This document shows, piece after piece, positions 56,754 to 64,000 of a stretch of 64,000 nt of DNA. This DNA is from Mesorhizobium ventifaucium. Its GTDB lineage: Bacteria > Pseudomonadota > Alphaproteobacteria > Rhizobiales > Rhizobiaceae. The stretch spans positions 1-64,000 of the forward strand of contig NZ_CAKXZS010000011.1 of assembly GCF_935822925.1 (NCBI RefSeq). Reading direction: 5' to 3'. Numbering within the stretch: position 1 is the stretch's first letter; every line of letters starts with the position of its first letter. The notes beneath the pieces were generated by a model. That model searched no databases. It was not told the DNA's origin and saw nothing but the letters and a program-made list of their open reading frames with translations. Made by a program: the position numbers and the translations under genes.

Positions 56754-57599
56754 TCAGGCCTTGCCCTTGCCGCCGGTGTCGCGCCGCTTTTCGCCAACCG
56801 CAACAGTCAGCGCCATGGCCAGCGCCATCGTCGCCGACAGCGAGCGGAAGCCGGCGAAATCGGCTTCAGCGACCTCGAACCAGACTTTGGCGAACTGGGC
56901 CAGCGGGGAAAAGGAACTGTCGGTGATCGCTACAATCGGAACGCGTTGCTCCGAGATGACGCGCGCCTCCTCGATGGTCGCCGGCGCATAAGGCGAAAAA
57001 CTGATGGCGATGACGGCATCCCTGGACGAGGCGAAGCTGATCATCTCGGCGTTGAGGCCGGCGGCTGATTCGATCAGCTGGTTGCGGATCTTGAGCTTGC
57101 CCAGCGCATAGGCGATGTAGGAGGCGACCGGATAGGAGCGGCGCTTGGCCAGCACATAGATGGTCTCCGCTTTCGCCAGCAAGGTGATCGCAGCCTCGAA
57201 ATGGTCTTCGTTCAACCTGCCTGAAATATCGTTGAGCGAGGTGCTCGCCGCGGCGACGAAGCCGTCGAAAATCGCCCGGTGACCGGCGCCTTCCTCGGCC
57301 TTGGCGCGCAATGCCGCCAGCCTTTCATCATACGACGAATTGCGCTCGCGCAGGCGCTCGCGAAACACCAGCTGCAGGCTGGTGAAGCCGTCGAAGCCGA
57401 ACTGCTGTGCGAAGCGTATCAAGGTCGAAGGCTGGACGCCGGCGGAGGCGGCGATGCTGGCCGCGGTGCCGAAGGCAATATCGTCGGGATTGTCGAGCGC
57501 ATAGGCGGCGATCTGCGCGATGCGCTTGGGCAGGCTCTGGCGCCGTTCCAGGATCGTTGTACGCAGCGTCTCGAAATTGCGGGGCACCCGTTCGTCCAT
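56754..57599 (-). CDS. iolR: RpiR-family regulator of the inositol genes
   Basis: A 281-residue regulator: N-terminal helix-turn-helix (PKRIAQIAAYALDNPDDIAF, ASIAASAGVQPSTLIRFAQQ) and C-terminal sugar-isomerase (SIS) domain (about 125-265; IYVLAKRRSYPVASYIAYAL, VIAISFSPYAPATIEEAR) that binds a phosphorylated effector. Position directly before iolC and the GGAA-N6-TTCC sites fit IolR, so the symbol is given by context. ATG 57599 is preferred over 57620 (GGCGGAG upstream). It is divergent from the Gfo/Idh gene. Confidence 0.85.
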   Translation of the reverse strand: MDERVPRNFETLRTTILERRQSLPKRIAQIAAYALDNPDDIAFGTAASIAASAGVQPSTLIRFAQQFGFDGFTSLQLVFRERLRERNSSYDERLAALRAKAEEGAGHRAIFDGFVAAASTSLNDISGRLNEDHFEAAITLLAKAETIYVLAKRRSYPVASYIAYALGKLKIRNQLIESAAGLNAEMISFASSRDAVIAISFSPYAPATIEEARVISEQRVPIVAITDSSFSPLAQFAKVWFEVAEADFAGFRSLSATMALAMALTVAVGEKRRDTGGKGKA

Positions 57600-57690
57600 C
57601 GTCGCTCCGCCTAGGTCCATCAGTCGATGCCGTGCGATGCCCCATCATAGCGAGCCTGTGCAAGAAGACCATAAAAAATGAGCCATGCGT

Positions 57691-57711
57691 TCCATTTCTG
57701 GATAAAATGGA
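57691..57711. promoter_or_regulatory. Palindrome in the iolR/dehydrogenase divergent region
   Basis: TCCATTT-N7-AAATGGA, perfect 7-bp arms, between the start of the RpiR gene and the divergent Gfo/Idh gene. It differs from the GGAA-N6-TTCC sites, so it may serve another regulator or be a weaker IolR variant. Confidence 0.5.
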
Positions 57712-57753
57712 CTAATTCATCCACACAACCTTCCTGGCAGCGGAGACAAGGAA

Positions 57754-58863
57754 ATGGTCGGAGTCGGTCTTATCGGCACGGGGTTCATGGGCAAGTGCCA
57801 CGCCATCGCCTGGAACGCGGTCGGCACCGTCTTTCCGGATGTGGCCAAGCCTAGGCTGGTCCATCTCGGCGAGGTCAGTGACGACCTTGCCAAGCGCCGG
57901 GCGACCGAGTTCGGCTTCGCCAAGGGCTCCGGCGACTGGCGCGCCGTTGTCGACGACCCGGACGTCGATATCGTCTCGCTGACCACGCCGAACCAGCTCC
58001 ACCCGGAGATGGCCATCGCCATCCTCGAAGCCGGCAAGCATCTGTGGTGCGAAAAACCGATGGCGCCGAGCTTTGCCGAGGCGCAAGCCATGGCGGCCGC
58101 GGCGCAAAAATCCGGCAAGGTGGCCGCGCTCGGCTACAACTACATCCAGAATCCGGCGATCCGCCATATCGGCGCGCTGCTCGACGAGAAGATCATCGGT
58201 GAAGTCAACCATCTGCGCATCGAGATGGACGAGGATTTCATGGCCGACCCGGAGGCGCTGTTCTTCTGGAAACACGAGGCGGCGTCCGGTTACGGCGCGC
58301 TCGACGATTTCGCCGTGCATCCGCTGTCGCTGGTCTCGGTGCTGTTCGGCCGCGTCGCCCGCGTCATGTGCGACATGGCAAAACCCTATGCCGATCGCCG
58401 CGTCGCATCAGGCGGGCGTCGCGCGGTCGAGACCTACGACATCGCCAGCGTGCTGATGCATCTCGAAAACGGCATTGCCGGCACACTGCTGGTCAACCGT
58501 TCGGCTTGGGGCCGCAAGGGCCGGATCGCCATTCAGATCTTCGGCTCGAAGGGCTCGATCCTGTACGACCAGGAGCGGATGAACGAGTTCCAGCTTTACC
58601 TGACAACCGACCGCCCGACCGAGCAAGGCTATCGCTCCATCCTCGTGGCGCCGCACCACAAGCCCTACGACGCCTTCCTGCCGGCACCCGGCCACGGTCT
58701 CGGCTTCAACGACCTCAAGATCATCGAATGCCGTGAGCTTTTGACGCGGTTGGCCGGCAAGCCGGCGCGGATCATCGATTTCGACGAAGGCCTCGAAATC
58801 GAGCGCACCGTGCATGCCATGGCGCGCTCGTTCGACGAACAGCGCTGGGTGGCGGTGCGATAA
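57754..58863 (+). CDS. Gfo/Idh/MocA-family dehydrogenase
   Basis: A 369-residue NAD(P)-dependent sugar or polyol dehydrogenase. NAD motif GVGLIGTGFMGKCHA at the N-terminus, then LTTPNQLHPEMAIAILEAGK and the EKP motif in LWCEKPMAPS; the C-terminal domain carries DDFAVHPLSLVSVLFG. It is divergent from iolR, which suggests control by the same inositol signal. It is more distant from IolG than the gene at 61434, so it may act on another inositol isomer or on a sugar acid; substrate unknown. Confidence 0.86.
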   Translation: MVGVGLIGTGFMGKCHAIAWNAVGTVFPDVAKPRLVHLGEVSDDLAKRRATEFGFAKGSGDWRAVVDDPDVDIVSLTTPNQLHPEMAIAILEAGKHLWCEKPMAPSFAEAQAMAAAAQKSGKVAALGYNYIQNPAIRHIGALLDEKIIGEVNHLRIEMDEDFMADPEALFFWKHEAASGYGALDDFAVHPLSLVSVLFGRVARVMCDMAKPYADRRVASGGRRAVETYDIASVLMHLENGIAGTLLVNRSAWGRKGRIAIQIFGSKGSILYDQERMNEFQLYLTTDRPTEQGYRSILVAPHHKPYDAFLPAPGHGLGFNDLKIIECRELLTRLAGKPARIIDFDEGLEIERTVHAMARSFDEQRWVAVR

Positions 58864-59044
58864 CGACGTACCCTCCGCAGTTCGAGCTTCCACACGTCAT
58901 CCCTGCAAGGGCAGGGGGAGAACTTGTGTTGACGAGCCAGTTGTCGATATTGACGCTGAGGGGGCGGCGCCGGCCTTTCAAAGCCAAAAGCAATGTAGCA
59001 ACCGCCGCAAAATTCCTGACTTCCAGCCAACGGCGCCAACCGCA

Positions 59045-60136
59045 TCAGGCGGCTCCCGGACGGCTGGCCATCAGGGCGCGTCGCGCCGACCGGCGCCGCT
59101 CGACGGCGTCGGCAAGGCCGTGCAGCACCGTCTCGGTGGTTGTCCAGTCGATGCAGCCATCGGTGATGCTCTGGCCATAGACGAGCGGCTTGCCAGGCAT
59201 GACCTCCTGCCGGCCGGCGACGAGGTTGCTCTCGATCATGACGCCGATGATGCGTTCGTCGCCTGCCGCGACCTGGCCCGCGACGTCGGCCGCCACCATC
59301 GGCTGGTTCTCCGGCTTCTTGTTGCTGTTGGCGTGGCTGACGTCGATCATCAGCCGTGGTGCTACGCTGATCCGGCCGAGTTCCGCGCAGGCGGCAGCTA
59401 TGCTCGTTGCGTCATAGTTCGGCACGATGCCGCCGCGCAGGATGACGTGGCAGTCCTCGTTACCGGTGGTCGTCGCGATAGCGCTGCGCCCGCCCTTCGT
59501 CACCGCCATGAAATGATGTGGCTGGGCGGCGGATTTCACCGCTTCGGCGGCGATCCGCAAATTGCCGTCGGTGCCGTTCTTGAAGCCGACCGGGCAGGAC
59601 AAGCCGGATGCGAGTTCGCGATGGATCTGGCTCTCTGTCGTGCGCGCGCCGATCGCGCCCCAGGCGACGAGGTCGGCAATGTATTGCGGGGTGGCCATGT
59701 CGAGGAATTCCGTCGCTGCCGGAAGGCCAAGATTGTTGACTGCGGAGAGCACGTTGCGGGCCATCCGCAAGCCCTTGTCGATGTTGAAGCTGCCGTCCAG
59801 GTCGGGATCGTTGATCAGGCCCTTCCATCCAACCGTCGTGCGCGGTTTCTCGAAATACACGCGCATCACGATCTCCAGCCGGTCCGACAGGCTCTCGCGC
59901 AACGCGACTAGCCGGCTGGCATAGTCGACGGCAGCGATCGGGTCGTGGATCGAACAGGGGCCGACGACGACGACCAGCCGATCGTCGGCGCCGGTCAGCA
60001 CGGCGTGGATAGCGTTGCGTGACGCGGCAACGGCGCGCGTCGCCGTCAGCGTGCGCGGTATCTCCCGCATCACGTCGTCCGGCGCACTCAGCTCTCGGAT
60101 TTCCTTGACCCGAAGATCATCTGTGGTGGTCAACAC
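59045..60136 (-). CDS. 3-deoxy-7-phosphoheptulonate synthase, class I
   Basis: A 363-residue DAHP synthase (AroF/G/H type) catalysing the first step of the shikimate pathway. Motifs: VVVGPCSIHDP, EKPRTTVGWKGLINDPD, IGARTTESQIHRE, FKNGTDG and DVSHANSNKKPE with the metal ligands. Rhizobia normally rely on a class II enzyme, so this E. coli-like class I form is probably an extra, feedback-regulated copy. The GTG start at 60136 follows AGGAGCAG. An aromatic leader peptide and terminator precede it, so attenuation is predicted. Confidence 0.92.
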   Translation of the reverse strand: MLTTTDDLRVKEIRELSAPDDVMREIPRTLTATRAVAASRNAIHAVLTGADDRLVVVVGPCSIHDPIAAVDYASRLVALRESLSDRLEIVMRVYFEKPRTTVGWKGLINDPDLDGSFNIDKGLRMARNVLSAVNNLGLPAATEFLDMATPQYIADLVAWGAIGARTTESQIHRELASGLSCPVGFKNGTDGNLRIAAEAVKSAAQPHHFMAVTKGGRSAIATTTGNEDCHVILRGGIVPNYDATSIAAACAELGRISVAPRLMIDVSHANSNKKPENQPMVAADVAGQVAAGDERIIGVMIESNLVAGRQEVMPGKPLVYGQSITDGCIDWTTTETVLHGLADAVERRRSARRALMASRPGAA

Positions 60137-60170
60137 GGCTTTCTGCTCCTGATTGGGAGATCTGCCGGCT

Positions 60171-60201
60171 AAAACAAAAAAAGCCGCCAGATCTGGCGGC
60201 T
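60171..60201 (-). terminator. Attenuator terminator before the DAHP synthase gene
   Basis: On the minus strand AGCCGCCAGA (60201-60192) is followed directly by its complement TCTGGCGGCT (60191-60182) and then a T-rich tract TTTTTTGTTTT: an intrinsic terminator in the leader. Its 5' arm can instead pair with CTGGCGGC inside the leader ORF (60255-60248), which gives the alternative antiterminator fold. Confidence 0.85.
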
Positions 60202-60225
60202 GTTCGGATGTTGTTGCTGCAATCT

Positions 60226-60303
60226 TCAGATCGAGCGCAATCCTCCCGCCGCCAGCGAGCTGCCGTAGCTAAAGTACCAGAACGAGGCGGTCAGGTGGAT
60301 CAT
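60226..60303 (-). CDS. Aromatic leader peptide of the DAHP synthase attenuator
   Basis: A 25-residue ORF starting ATG 60303. Residues 8-13 read FWYFSY: five of six are aromatic and all three aromatic amino acids occur. Codons 17-19 contain the CTGGCGGC that can pair with the terminator arm, so a ribosome stalled at the aromatic codons would expose it and prevent termination. The predicted transcription start falls on the A of the ATG, i.e. a leaderless message as known for rhizobial trpL. Confidence 0.82.
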   Translation of the reverse strand: MIHLTASFWYFSYGSSLAAGGLRSI

Positions 60304-60338
60304 GCCAGCCCTATAGCCGAAGCCACGGCGCTTGTCAC
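60304..60338 (-). promoter_or_regulatory. Promoter of the leader/DAHP synthase transcript
   Basis: On the minus strand GTGACA (60338-60333) and TATAGG (60315-60310) are separated by 17 bp, a good sigma-70-type promoter. The expected start is about 60303, the first base of the leader ORF. Confidence 0.65.
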
Positions 60339-60397
60339 GCGTCCGATGAGGAGGAGGTCTACTCGAGCCCATTCGCGATTGGCTGAAGCCTCTCGAA

Positions 60398-60584
60398 CTT
60401 CGTCATCCTAGTGCGAAGGAAGAGCGAAGCTCCGTCGCGAAGACCCTGGGATCCATTCCGTGATCCTAGCCGAAGAGCGCAGCGGAGCAGAATTCTTCAC
60501 CGCGGCAACGCCTAGAAGTCGCGGCATGGATCTCGGGTCTGCGCCGCGTCGCTACGCTCCTTGCTCTGCCCGTGGATGACGAAG
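60398..60584. repeat. 187-bp element with 11-bp terminal inverted repeats
   Basis: CTTCGTCATCC (60398-60408) and GGATGACGAAG (60574-60584) are exact inverted copies bounding a GC-rich, partly self-complementary stretch without a gene. It looks like a small mobile or palindromic intergenic element of rhizobia, inserted between the SDR gene and the attenuator. Confidence 0.6.
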
Positions 60585-60615
60585 CGATGGGGCGGTTCCG
60601 CTAGACTCGCCGGCG

Positions 60616-61410
60616 TTACTCCGGCGACGCTCCGGCAACGTTCTGGTCGTAATCGACCAGTGACCCGGTCATGACGCCCGACTGTGGGCTCAGCATATAG
60701 CTGATCAGTCGGGCAAGCTGGTCCGGCTTCACCAATTGGCCCATCGGCTGCGCGGCCTCGGCCTTTTCCAGCCAGTCGTCCGGCGCGTCGTGCCATTTCT
60801 TCTGCACGATCTCCTCGCCCTCGGTGTCCATCCAGCCGGGCAGCACCGCGTTGCAGCGGATGCGATTGCTGCGGTAGGCATTGGCGACATTCTTGGTCAG
60901 CGTCGCCAGTGCGCCCTTGCTCGACGAATAGGGCGCCAGGAACGACTGGCCGCAATGCGCCGACATCGACAGCACATTGACGATCGAGCCGGGCGCCTTG
61001 CGGTCGAGCAGGTGTGCCACCACACCCTGCATCAGGAAAAAGGGGCCGCGCACATTGGTCTGGAAGATCTGGTCGAATGTTTCCTCGGAGGTCTCGACCA
61101 GTGAGCCGCGGGCCGAGGTGGCGGCGGCGTTGACCAGCGCGTTGATCGAGCCGAAACGAGCGATCGCCGTTTCGACGACCCGCTTGCAGTCGGCCACCAC
61201 TGAGACGTCGGCGCTGATGAACATGGCGTCGACGCCGTCTTTCGCAAGTGCGGCGACCGCCTTGTCGCCCTTCTCCCTGGAGCGGCCGACCAGCGCCAGT
61301 GCGCGGCAGCCCTCGTCGGCGAGCGCTTCGGCGACGGCGAAGCCGATGCCTTGCGCGCCGCCGGTGACGATGGCGCGTGTTTCTGAATTGCGACCGGCGG
61401 AACCGTTCAT
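60616..61410 (-). CDS. Short-chain dehydrogenase/reductase of the polyol operon
   Basis: A 264-residue SDR. TGGAQGIG cofactor motif near residue 16, VNAAATSARG in place of NNAG, serine in VLSMSAHCG and catalytic YSSSK. It probably oxidises a polyol or sugar; it is transcribed with iolG (24 bp apart) and the second CUT2 transporter. AGGAG precedes ATG 61410. Confidence 0.87.
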   Translation of the reverse strand: MNGSAGRNSETRAIVTGGAQGIGFAVAEALADEGCRALALVGRSREKGDKAVAALAKDGVDAMFISADVSVVADCKRVVETAIARFGSINALVNAAATSARGSLVETSEETFDQIFQTNVRGPFFLMQGVVAHLLDRKAPGSIVNVLSMSAHCGQSFLAPYSSSKGALATLTKNVANAYRSNRIRCNAVLPGWMDTEGEEIVQKKWHDAPDDWLEKAEAAQPMGQLVKPDQLARLISYMLSPQSGVMTGSLVDYDQNVAGASPE

Positions 61411-61433
61411 CCCCTTGCTCCTGTGCTTGATGG

Positions 61434-62435
61434 TCAGACTGTCTTGTCGAGGCGGACGGTCTTGCCTTCCCTGGCCGATTTCAGCGCCGCGTCCGCCAGC
61501 CTCAGCGCGACGAGCCCGTCCTTGCCGCTCGGCGCCGCCTTCTTGCCTGACGTCGCCGCCGCGATGAAGGCGGCGATCTCGTTGGCGTAGGCGTCGAGAT
61601 AGCGGGTCATGAAGAAGTCGTGCAGCGGCGGGCGCGTATAGCCCTTCTCATTGGCCAGTTCGATCGACACCGGCCGCTGGTTCTCGGCCGCAACCATGCC
61701 TTTCGAGCCATGCACCTCAATCCGCTGGTCATAGCCATAAGTGGCGCGCCGCGAATTGGAGATGATGCACTGCTTGCCGGAGGCGGTTTCGAGGATGACG
61801 CTGACGCTGTCGAAATCGCCGGCCTCGCCGATTTGTCTGTCGACCAGCACCGAGGCATGGGCGCTGACCGCCACCGGCTCCTCGCCGAGCAGAAAGCGCG
61901 CCATGTCGAAATCATGGATGGTCATGTCGCGGAAGATACCGCCCGAGCGGCCGATATAGTCGAGCGGCGGCGGGCCGGGATCGCGCGACGTGATGGTCAC
62001 CATCTCGACGGTGCCGATGGCGCCGTCGTCGATCGCCTTGCGCACGGCGGCGAAATGCGGATCGAAGCGGCGGTTGAAGCCGACCATCAAAGTGGCGCCG
62101 GCCTTATCGACCACGGCCAGGCATTCTTCCACTCTGCCGGCGTCGAGGTCGATCGGCTTCTCGCAGAAGATCGCCTTGCCGGCCTTGGCGAACCGCTCGA
62201 TCAGATCGGCATGGGTGTCGGTCGGCGTGCAGATGATGACCGCATCAATATCCCCGGCTTTTTCGATGGCCTCTATAGTGCGTACTTCCGCGCCATAGGC
62301 CGACGCCAGCTCCGTCGCCGCCTTCTCGAAGGCATCGGCAACTGCGACCAGCCTGGCCTGCGGATTGGAACCGACGGCACGGGCGTGGACCTTGCCGATG
62401 CGGCCGGCACCGAGAAGAGCGAAGCGGAGAGACAT
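61434..62435 (-). CDS. iolG: Inositol 2-dehydrogenase
   Basis: A 333-residue Gfo/Idh/MocA enzyme oxidising myo-inositol to scyllo-inosose with NAD. N-terminal LLGAGRIGKVHARAV, the EKP motif in IFCEKPIDLD, and the active-site stretch GIFRDMTIHDFDMARFLL with Asp/His as in IolG. Length matches. AAGGAAAT precedes ATG 62435. It begins 120 bp after the transporter ATPase gene and supplies the first step for IolE/IolD/IolB/IolC. Confidence 0.9.
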   Translation of the reverse strand: MSLRFALLGAGRIGKVHARAVGSNPQARLVAVADAFEKAATELASAYGAEVRTIEAIEKAGDIDAVIICTPTDTHADLIERFAKAGKAIFCEKPIDLDAGRVEECLAVVDKAGATLMVGFNRRFDPHFAAVRKAIDDGAIGTVEMVTITSRDPGPPPLDYIGRSGGIFRDMTIHDFDMARFLLGEEPVAVSAHASVLVDRQIGEAGDFDSVSVILETASGKQCIISNSRRATYGYDQRIEVHGSKGMVAAENQRPVSIELANEKGYTRPPLHDFFMTRYLDAYANEIAAFIAAATSGKKAAPSGKDGLVALRLADAALKSAREGKTVRLDKTV

Positions 62436-62555
62436 GGGATTTCCTTTGAGGATTGTTCGAAATGGAAGTGCGTCTTTACTGCACCGTTCAGGGCAAGGCG
62501 CAGTGGATTTTCCTGCTCGGCGACGGGCCGATGACCCGCCGCGCCGGCATTCGCC

Positions 62556-63323
62556 TTAGGCCGCGAGTTCTGCCTCCCCGGTCTTGGCGCCGGTGATGTA
62601 TGAGACGACGTCGTTGCCGTCGGTGTCCTGCTTGCGCAGATTGGCAACGATTTTGCCGCGGCGGAAGACGACGATGCGATCGCAAAGGTCGAACACCTGG
62701 CGCATGTTGTGACTGATCAGGATCAGCGGCTCGCCATTGGCCTTCAGCGTGCGGATGATGTTTTCAACCTGCATCGTCTCCTGCACACCAAGTGCTGCCG
62801 TCGGCTCGTCCATGATGATGAGCTTGGACGCGAAGGTCGCGGTTCTGGCGATTGCCACGCACTGGCGCTGGCCGCCAGACATGTGGCGGATGGTGTTGGA
62901 AAGGTTGGGAATCTTGACCGCCGTGCGGATCAGCGCTGCCTCGGTTGCCTTGCGCATGAACTTGCGATCGAGGATCGAGAAAGGTCCGAGATTGAAAAGC
63001 ACCTTTTCGCGGCCGAGAAACAGGTTCGACGGTACGTCGAGATCGTCGGCGAGCGCCAGGTTCTGGAACACCGTTTCGATGCCCGCCTCGCGCGCCGCGA
63101 TCGGGCCGGCGAAGTTCACTTCCTTGCCATCGAACCAGACCTTGCCGCTGGTCCGCTGCTCGACGGCCGTGATCTGGCGCACGAAGGTCGATTTGCCGGC
63201 GCCGTTGTCACCCATGATGGCGACATGCTCGCCCTTGCGCAGTTCGAAGTTCGCGCCTTCGAGCGCATGCACGCCGCCATAGTATTTGGTCAGGTTTTCG
63301 GTCTTCAGGACGATGTCTGACAT
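62556..63323 (-). CDS. Second CUT2 sugar ABC transporter, single-domain ATP-binding protein
   Basis: A 255-residue ATPase with one ABC domain: Walker A GDNGAGKST, Q-loop VFQNLALADDL, signature MSGGQRQ, Walker B LIIMDEPTAALG. Only one domain is present, as in FrcA of Sinorhizobium, whereas the transporter at 44016 has the usual double ATPase. ATG 63323 lies 2 bp after the permease stop; the long frame upstream is a shadow. Confidence 0.9.
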   Translation of the reverse strand: MSDIVLKTENLTKYYGGVHALEGANFELRKGEHVAIMGDNGAGKSTFVRQITAVEQRTSGKVWFDGKEVNFAGPIAAREAGIETVFQNLALADDLDVPSNLFLGREKVLFNLGPFSILDRKFMRKATEAALIRTAVKIPNLSNTIRHMSGGQRQCVAIARTATFASKLIIMDEPTAALGVQETMQVENIIRTLKANGEPLILISHNMRQVFDLCDRIVVFRRGKIVANLRKQDTDGNDVVSYITGAKTGEAELAA

Positions 63324-63325
63324 GA

Positions 63326-64000
63326 TCAAGCCCTCATTGCCCGCAGGCGCTGGCGCCACTGGTCGAGAACGACTGCGCCTATGATGATCACGCCCTTGAC
63401 CATCTCCTGGTAGTAGGCGTCGAGGCGCAGGAAGGTGAAGCCGGAGATGATGACGCCGAAGATCAGCGCACCGATCACCGTTCCGATGATCGAGCCGCGG
63501 CCGCCCGACAGCGAGACGCCGCCGATGACCGCCATGGCGATCGCGTCCAATTCGTACATCACGCCCATGCCGGCCTGAGCGGTGAGGTTCTTGGAGCTCA
63601 GCACCACGGCGGCGAGCGAGGCGAGGATGCCGGCAATGACGAAGACGAGGATCTTGTGGTTCTGGACATTTATGCCGGACATGCGGGCGGCGTCCTCGTT
63701 GGAGCCGATGGCATAACAGTGCTTCCCGTACCTGGTGTATGACAGGATCAGCTGGAACAGAATCGCCAGCGATATGAAGATGATGACAGGCATCAGCCCC
63801 TTGCCGATGGCGGCGAAACTTTCGGTGGGAAACGAGATCGGCTGCCCCTTGGACCACCATTTGGCGACGCCGCGCGCGGTGACCATCATGCCGAGCGTGG
63901 CGATGAACGGCGGAATGCGGGAGTAGGCGACCAGCGTGCCGTTGATCAGGCCCGCCAGCAGGCCGCAGCCGATCGCGACGATCACCGGCACGATCACCGG
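63326..64000 (-). CDS. Second CUT2 sugar ABC transporter, permease (partial)
   Basis: The C-terminal 224 residues of an RbsC/FrcC-type permease; the N-terminus lies beyond the window end. Visible: GCGLLAGLINGTLVAYSRIP, YAIGSNEDAARMSGI and MAVIGGVSLSGGRGSIIG, the usual CUT2 permease motifs. A binding-protein gene is expected further upstream. Co-transcribed with the ATPase, iolG and the SDR. Confidence 0.9.
   Translation of the reverse strand, partial: PVIVPVIVAIGCGLLAGLINGTLVAYSRIPPFIATLGMMVTARGVAKWWSKGQPISFPTESFAAIGKGLMPVIIFISLAILFQLILSYTRYGKHCYAIGSNEDAARMSGINVQNHKILVFVIAGILASLAAVVLSSKNLTAQAGMGVMYELDAIAMAVIGGVSLSGGRGSIIGTVIGALIFGVIISGFTFLRLDAYYQEMVKGVIIIGAVVLDQWRQRLRAMRA

Follow-up and report, generated by a model that had tools for sequence, protein, structure and literature searches.

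What controls the class I DAHP synthase gene on the minus strand of the window (the whole stretch of Mesorhizobium ventifaucium DNA that was analysed, 64,000 nucleotides), and does the short open reading frame in front of it, rich in aromatic codons, take part in that control? The shikimate pathway is entered through DAHP synthase. From sequence comparison and RNA folding models we read the element, with a probability of about 0.85, as a leaderless, ribosome-mediated transcription attenuator of the trp/phe type that would control the class I DAHP synthase.

Leader region and DAHP synthase gene of the window

The class I assignment made in the original prediction is borne out by a TIGR00034 score of 523 bits (cut-off 173) together with a match to PF00793, and the closest named relatives of the enzyme are those of Mesorhizobium, with a top identity of 91% (M. 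ciceri). Also present in the sequence as proposed are the 25-codon ORF with its aromatic run at codons 8-13, the terminator after it, a palindrome running into a T-run, and the segment in codons 17-19 that could pair with it, the pairing core of which is conserved in relatives (Table 1). The terminator lies ∼40 nt from the DAHP synthase gene.

Table 1. Positions in the window of the leader elements and of the gene behind them
Feature	Position	Strand	Remarks
-35 hexamer GTGACA	60333..60338	-	from the sequence; TGACA kept in the 29-relative alignment
-10 hexamer TATAGG	60310..60315	-	spacer 17 nt; 6 nt to ATG; TATATG in many relatives
Leader ORF MIHLTASFWYFSYGSSLAAGGLRSI	60226..60303	-	25 codons + stop; probably leaderless; ATG at 60303-60301
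Candidate segment 1, CCGCC	60286..60290	-	codons 5-6; possible, weakly supported pairing with segment 2
Aromatic control codons TTC TGG TAC TTT AGC TAC	60265..60282	-	F8-W9-Y10-F11-S12-Y13
Segment 2, CTGGCGGC	60248..60255	-	codons 17-19; 5' arm of the putative antiterminator
Segment 3, AGCCGCCAG	60193..60201	-	forms the putative antiterminator with segment 2 or the terminator with segment 4
Segment 4, CTGGCGGC + T-run	60176..60190	-	3' arm of the terminator
Intrinsic terminator AGCCGCCAGATCTGGCGGCT + T-run	stem 60201-60182	-	perfect 20-base palindrome
Shine-Dalgarno sequence AGGAG	60146..60150	-	of the DAHP synthase gene
Class I (AroFGH-type) DAHP synthase	59045..60136	-	GTG start at 60136; TIGR00034, PF00793

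A promoter with a 17-nt spacer, starting the message on the leader ATG itself, had been proposed as well. No promoter was listed by a strict consensus scan, and the hexamer pair of Table 1 came only from a looser search; the spacer is as claimed, and with the -10 hexamer only 6 nt from the ATG, a transcription start on the ATG is plausible. We rejected as the real leader a 48-residue in-frame ORF beginning at the ATG at 60372, because conservation among relatives does not extend above the promoter. A plasmid-borne element was likewise rejected, there being no match in the plasmid collection. No Rfam family reached its gathering score in a scan of the window, Phe_leader (RF01859) scoring 20.2 bits, below its gathering score of 55.

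The surroundings of the gene in the window (56754-63997) are of the sugar and inositol type: IolG (scoring over its cut-off), a further dehydrogenase and an oxidoreductase of the SDR type were matched, RpiR was matched weakly, and an ABC transporter was recognized by eye; no other aromatic genes were noticed there. A class II DAHP synthase is encoded elsewhere in the genome, on a different contig, with no comparable leader seen upstream of it. At L037 (contig C23, 1418-1495), 5' of class II DAHP synthase, stands a 25-codon ORF, MEPRSPYWGEMAGDSTRWKEFWVQR, whose TGA overlaps the ATG in frame with that synthase, and which may be a coupled leader containing three Trp or may be due to chance.

Conservation in the class and spread beyond it

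In a first survey, 36 of 61 genomes had the class I gene and all 36 had the leader (29 in the alignment, one, L030, with one residue changed, and six further), two other families contributing the leaders MITTATFFWYFSYPLPAEAIARV and MNHAAATYYFWFSYPQPQAEAGVRSI. An order sample gave the gene in 59 of 397 genomes, each with an aromatic leader and T-run, those of genus g26 having a short aromatic run, as in RFYSY; a class sample gave it in 14 of 385, again with the leader in 14/14, although the run of one of these (L096) is down to two aromatic codons. For another (G614) the gene is at a contig end and the leader, MNLAAATYYFDFFGYPMPLAEVGVWLI, at the end of a separate contig, and we infer that the two adjoin. 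The three surveys combined cover 100 different genomes of the window's class with the gene, and the leader is present in all 100. Leader ORF, terminator, promoter position and alternative-pairing core are all kept in these relatives, which is the pattern of conservation that the original prediction had called for.

We compared 100 upstream stretches (from 98 genomes, two of them entered twice) with randomized sequence under one criterion, namely an ATG ORF of 8-45 codons with at least 3 (or 4) aromatics in 7 and a perfect 6-base stem at a T-run. It was passed by 95 of the 100 stretches, by no dinucleotide shuffle in any of five sets of 100 and by none on the reverse strand; the leader arrangement is therefore not chance. 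The five misses, four g26 leaders (L088-L091) and L096, all carry leaders that fall outside the criterion. Those four and L254, from a Rhizobium tropici record, have a diverged leader such as MSTTSIYASRFYSYRCSQRMRARA, three of the five without Trp, and the enzyme behind it is ∼64% identical; the L254 enzyme copy groups with one from Acetobacteraceae, and leader and enzyme in this set are probably a separate acquisition.

A covariance model, R1, was built from 38 leaders (alignment A2), all of the window's class, and may miss diverged leaders. In the window's own genome it gave one significant full-length match (E 2.6e-26) and no further copy significant at full length, the next best match being to the terminator part only (8.1e-4) and one other full-length match having an E of 0.88. 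Full-length matches at E <= 1e-12 occurred in the class sample in exactly the 14 of 385 genomes that have the gene; since 12 of these sequences belong to the training set, in which the remaining two (G071 and G614) have close kin, this result speaks chiefly for the absence of strong matches elsewhere. At E <= 0.01 some match was found in 91 of the 385 genomes, mostly to the terminator only among those listed. A few of the weaker matches were full-length, at E 2e-5 or weaker, and by eye no DAHP synthase was recognized among the open frames listed for the weaker matches L124-L127 and L105.

In a phylum sample searched at 1e-5, 42 of 349 genomes matched R1, 18 of them already known from the earlier surveys. 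Of the other 24 matches, one is chance and one precedes a pheS-like gene; the gene behind each of the remaining 22 is a class I DAHP synthase (58-69% identical). The enzyme itself is present in 199 of the 349 genomes, and the leader was found at this threshold in all 20 of those belonging to the window's class and in 20 of the 179 others; outside the class the leader is thus far from universal. The R1 match before the pheS-like gene (L170, 196-321; the gene named by eye) is a known Phe_leader, scoring 73.9 bits with RF01859. An Rfam scan of six relatives before DAHP synthase brought no family to its gathering score.

Named DAHP synthase loci number at least 590, and we examined the 80 best of them. 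In 71 there is a full-length R1 match at E < 1e-6, and two match weakly (L224, 1.7e-5; L246, 8.6e-4); the R1 leader is absent from five (L203, L228, L232, L244 and L253), and two are cut off (L239 and L241). Alphaproteobacterial carriers include Mesorhizobium, Bradyrhizobium, Devosia, Kaistia and Methylosinus; Bordetella, Achromobacter, Burkholderia, Massilia, Xanthomonas, Stenotrophomonas and Dyella are among the others. A rhizobial element had been expected; the leader extends well past the rhizobia, into beta- and gammaproteobacteria. In a midpoint-rooted enzyme tree Xanthomonadales and Alcaligenaceae group with the alphaproteobacteria (fork 93/94, not strong), so transfer or old paralogy is possible, and the five rows without a leader require 4 changes. 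Two named loci stand apart: in L233 (Candidatus Burkholderia humilis; R1 match 2.9e-12) the ORF is without its usual stop and extends to 48 codons, perhaps as a decaying leader, and L192, a record titled Mycobacterium sp. KBS0706, has an alphaproteobacterial-type DAHP synthase with a full leader and is perhaps a mislabelled or mixed assembly.

Control codons, alternative pairing and the proposed switch

The geometry of the leader was compared across the first three surveys, which gave 94 distinct leaders. In 87 of them 17 nt separate the two hexamers of the promoter-like pair, in the other 7 the spacer is 18, and the end of the -10 hexamer is 6-7 nt from the ATG in 87 of the 94; as the pairs come from a best-pair search with no null model, it is this tight distance to the ATG that is the evidence. 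A Shine-Dalgarno-like word before the leader ATG was found in none of the 94 and in 1 of 73 named leaders; the named leaders from outside the alphaproteobacteria have a poorer -10 match. From the last aromatic codon to the GGCGG of segment 2 there are 14 nt in 69 of the 94 leaders and 11 nt in 17, and from the end of segment 2 to the stop codon 20 nt in 78. Given the ribosome footprint, a ribosome whose A site is on the last aromatic codon would reach to about segment 2. The GGCGG/AGCGG core falls into the three reading frames 87, 4 and 3 times, and because it is in another frame in 7 of the 94 leaders, the sequences suggest that the RNA, not the peptide, is conserved at this core.

By its sequence, then, the leader is a short ORF with codons for products of the pathway. 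Phe and Tyr are in the aromatic run of all 94 leaders and Trp in 85, leaving 9 without it. Phe is in every run of the 73 named leaders, Tyr is absent from two (L222 and L243), and Trp is found in 25 of the 27 of alphaproteobacterial type and in 25 of the 46 others. Our best reading of this codon content is of an attenuator that would respond to Phe, nearly always to Tyr and often to Trp; the proposed sensing of total aromatic supply has accordingly to be qualified for Trp and, in two named leaders, for Tyr. The Phe codons of the run are TTT in 149 of 185 cases, whereas the genes used for comparison (six window genes and the relatives' DAHP synthase genes) prefer TTC and have TTT in 11 of 126; TTT likewise makes up 183 of the 228 Phe codons in the runs of the named set.

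We assessed the two alternative helices by covariation. For the terminator (3:4) 95.3% of cells are paired, with 11 double-change cells compared with 2.1 in shuffles (0/500), and for the antiterminator (2:3) 83.6%, with 7 compared with 2.4 (3/500). In genus g26 the segment 2 core AGCGG pairs with CCGCT of segment 3, a change from GC to AU, and 3:4 is retained through G-U. Counted as pairs with a double change, of which each helix has 3, neither 3:4 nor 2:3 is above shuffles (60/500 for 3:4 and 103/500 for 2:3). When each group was represented by a single leader, a permutation test yielded p values of 0.11 (2:3) and 0.015 (3:4); the 2:3 core is almost invariant across leaders. Judged from these alignments, a terminator lies between leader and gene and its pairs are kept by compensating change. 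Set against synonymous recodings, 2:3 is stronger than expected in 27 leaders taken together (Fisher 2e-4, kinship ignored), with 5 of the 27 individually <0.05; for 1:2 the Fisher p was 0.008 over the 27 leaders, which are not independent, with 0/27 individually <0.05, and a 1:2 hairpin is a weakly supported candidate.

Folding was modelled at 30 °C with a ribosome placed on each aromatic codon of the 94 distinct leaders, with no shuffled control. Before segment 4 is made, and so with no competitor in the fold, 2:3 has a predicted probability of at least 0.5 at one or more aromatic stalls in 94/94 leaders; in 83 this holds for every uncovered stall, and in the other 11 some stall falls below 0.5. 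With segment 4 included, 2:3 forms at one or more stalls in 49 leaders and at none in 45, and in the free full-length RNA 3:4 forms in 93, the exception being L047 (0.17). For the leader of the window 2:3 reaches 1.0 at each stall before segment 4, as does 3:4 in the free RNA, and with segment 4 present 2:3 is 0.98 at F8, 0.98 at W9, 0.41 at Y10, 0.00 at F11 and 0.02 at Y13. On these values the switch would have to rely on co-transcriptional kinetics and to work largely by order of synthesis. Folding, covariation and the nearly constant distance of segment 2 from the aromatic codons together give moderate support for an antiterminator that would exclude the terminator and whose arm would be free under a stalled ribosome.

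In the mechanism that we propose, transcription would begin at the leader ATG or next to it, and the leader would therefore be translated as a leaderless mRNA. When Phe-, Tyr- or, in this leader, Trp-tRNA is scarce, the first ribosome would stall within codons 8-13 with its front edge about at segment 2, which could then capture segment 3 as it emerges; with 2:3 formed, the 3:4 terminator would be blocked and the DAHP synthase gene transcribed. With plentiful charged tRNA the ribosome would move on and segment 2 would be masked or, less certainly, paired with segment 1. A point against this mechanism is that segment 2 would be left uncovered by a ribosome resting on the stop codon. With segment 2 unavailable, 3:4 would form and transcription would end ∼40 nt before the gene, leaving a terminated leader RNA of ∼128 nt.

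Alternative readings and relation to known systems

Three other explanations of the element were weighed. The nucleotides are highly conserved across the ORF within the genus, as they might be in a ligand-binding riboswitch or a protein-binding leader in which the ORF is incidental; in distant groups, however, it is the ORF, the aromatic run and the distance to segment 2 that persist while many other nucleotides differ, an unsystematic look noticed no further conserved helix, and neither the window nor the six relatives before DAHP synthase gave an Rfam family at gathering score, on which ground a riboswitch was rejected. We regard this explanation as extremely improbable. The terminator might instead be the mere end of an upstream or free-standing sRNA or small-protein gene, leaving the synthase uncontrolled, and trans-acting terminated leader RNAs are indeed known elsewhere, as described for S. 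meliloti rnTrpL and peTrpL in the available part of PMC7298713. That the strong full-length R1 matches of the class sample are confined to genomes with the gene, and that all but two of the 24 opened phylum matches precede a class I DAHP synthase, makes such an arrangement very unlikely.

Within the attenuator reading, the sensing might be limited to one or two of the aromatics (Phe, or Phe and Tyr), with the Trp codon and the rest as passengers. Phe is the constant member of the run (94/94 leaders and all 73 named ones), Trp is missing from 9 of the 94 and from 21 of the 46 named leaders of other than alphaproteobacterial type, and AroR of Corynebacterium glutamicum, with Phe-Tyr-Phe, is described in the excerpts available as responding to Phe and not to Tyr (PMC11802643). 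Set against this, Trp is retained in 25 of the 27 named alphaproteobacterial-type leaders despite varying neighbors, DAHP synthase feeds all three amino acids, and in the window it is the stall at W9, along with that at F8, that yields the strongest predicted antiterminator. A restricted sensor is therefore to be taken seriously but seems to us on the unlikely side. The broadest form of the attenuator reading is an either-or sensor of all three aromatics, old in Proteobacteria and travelling with the class I DAHP synthase, whose terminated, leaderless RNA and whose peptide would have further roles in trans, like rnTrpL and peTrpL; this we offer as speculation, rather doubtful as it stands.

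The nearest relative in kind is trpL of S. meliloti, which is leaderless and yields rnTrpL and peTrpL (PMC7298713, PMC10117765). As far as the excerpts available describe it, trpL shares with the present element a leaderless leader ORF, control codons, a mutually exclusive antiterminator and terminator and no repression of transcription, and differs in having Trp codons, 14 codons in all and a position before trpE(G), whereas the leader of the window has Phe, Trp and Tyr codons and precedes a DAHP synthase. Phe_leader (RF01859) likewise combines an aromatic leader with a terminator; the leader of the window precedes another gene and scores only 20.2 bits with it.

Attenuators of DAHP synthase are as a kind already known, and it is the family of the window's leader that has no Rfam match at gathering score. 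In the accessible parts of the sources, the C. glutamicum AroR leader attenuates aroF, a DAHP synthase (PMC11802643, PMC4046766), and is in that respect alike, compared by description and not by sequence; it differs in coming from an actinobacterium, in a Phe-Tyr-Phe run with no mention of Trp there and in its response to Phe alone of Phe and Tyr. The uORFC-13-1 motif, a predicted uORF attenuator before aroF with Phe codons and a terminator (PMC8632094, in the excerpt available), again resembles the present element by description, as a uORF attenuator before a DAHP synthase, and differs in being described only from Acholeplasma and environmental sequences (24 representatives) and in having a ribosome binding site. 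Closer to home, two Vibrio species have a predicted attenuator in front of aroAI-alpha_Y > tyrA, an operon with a class I DAHP synthase (Merino database; 2005 survey, Table 7, PMC1173090), and attenuation of E. coli aroF was hypothesized (cited in PMC8632094). In the parts of these sources available, the one a prediction and the other a hypothesis, attenuation is proposed to act on a class I DAHP synthase of proteobacteria, with no leader sequence given, and the comparison made here is by description. Among the open-literature matches listed, none describes a DAHP synthase attenuator from an alphaproteobacterium; this covers open papers, and an earlier prediction in the subscription literature, such as Vitreschak 2004, is therefore possible. 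The accessible text of Naville and Gautheret 2010 names no aro gene, and a term look-up in the available parts of other TSS, sRNA and regulon papers showed no DAHP synthase leader.

The element stands in cis before every class I copy found in the window's class and before many in Burkholderiales and Xanthomonadales. If our reading is true, a single cis element would fit DAHP synthase to demand at the RNA level, and it presents itself as a testable sensor of three amino acids. It would add to the known leaders a leaderless leader-peptide family with no Rfam match, and would make concrete a control that has been predicted or hypothesized for other proteobacterial DAHP synthases.
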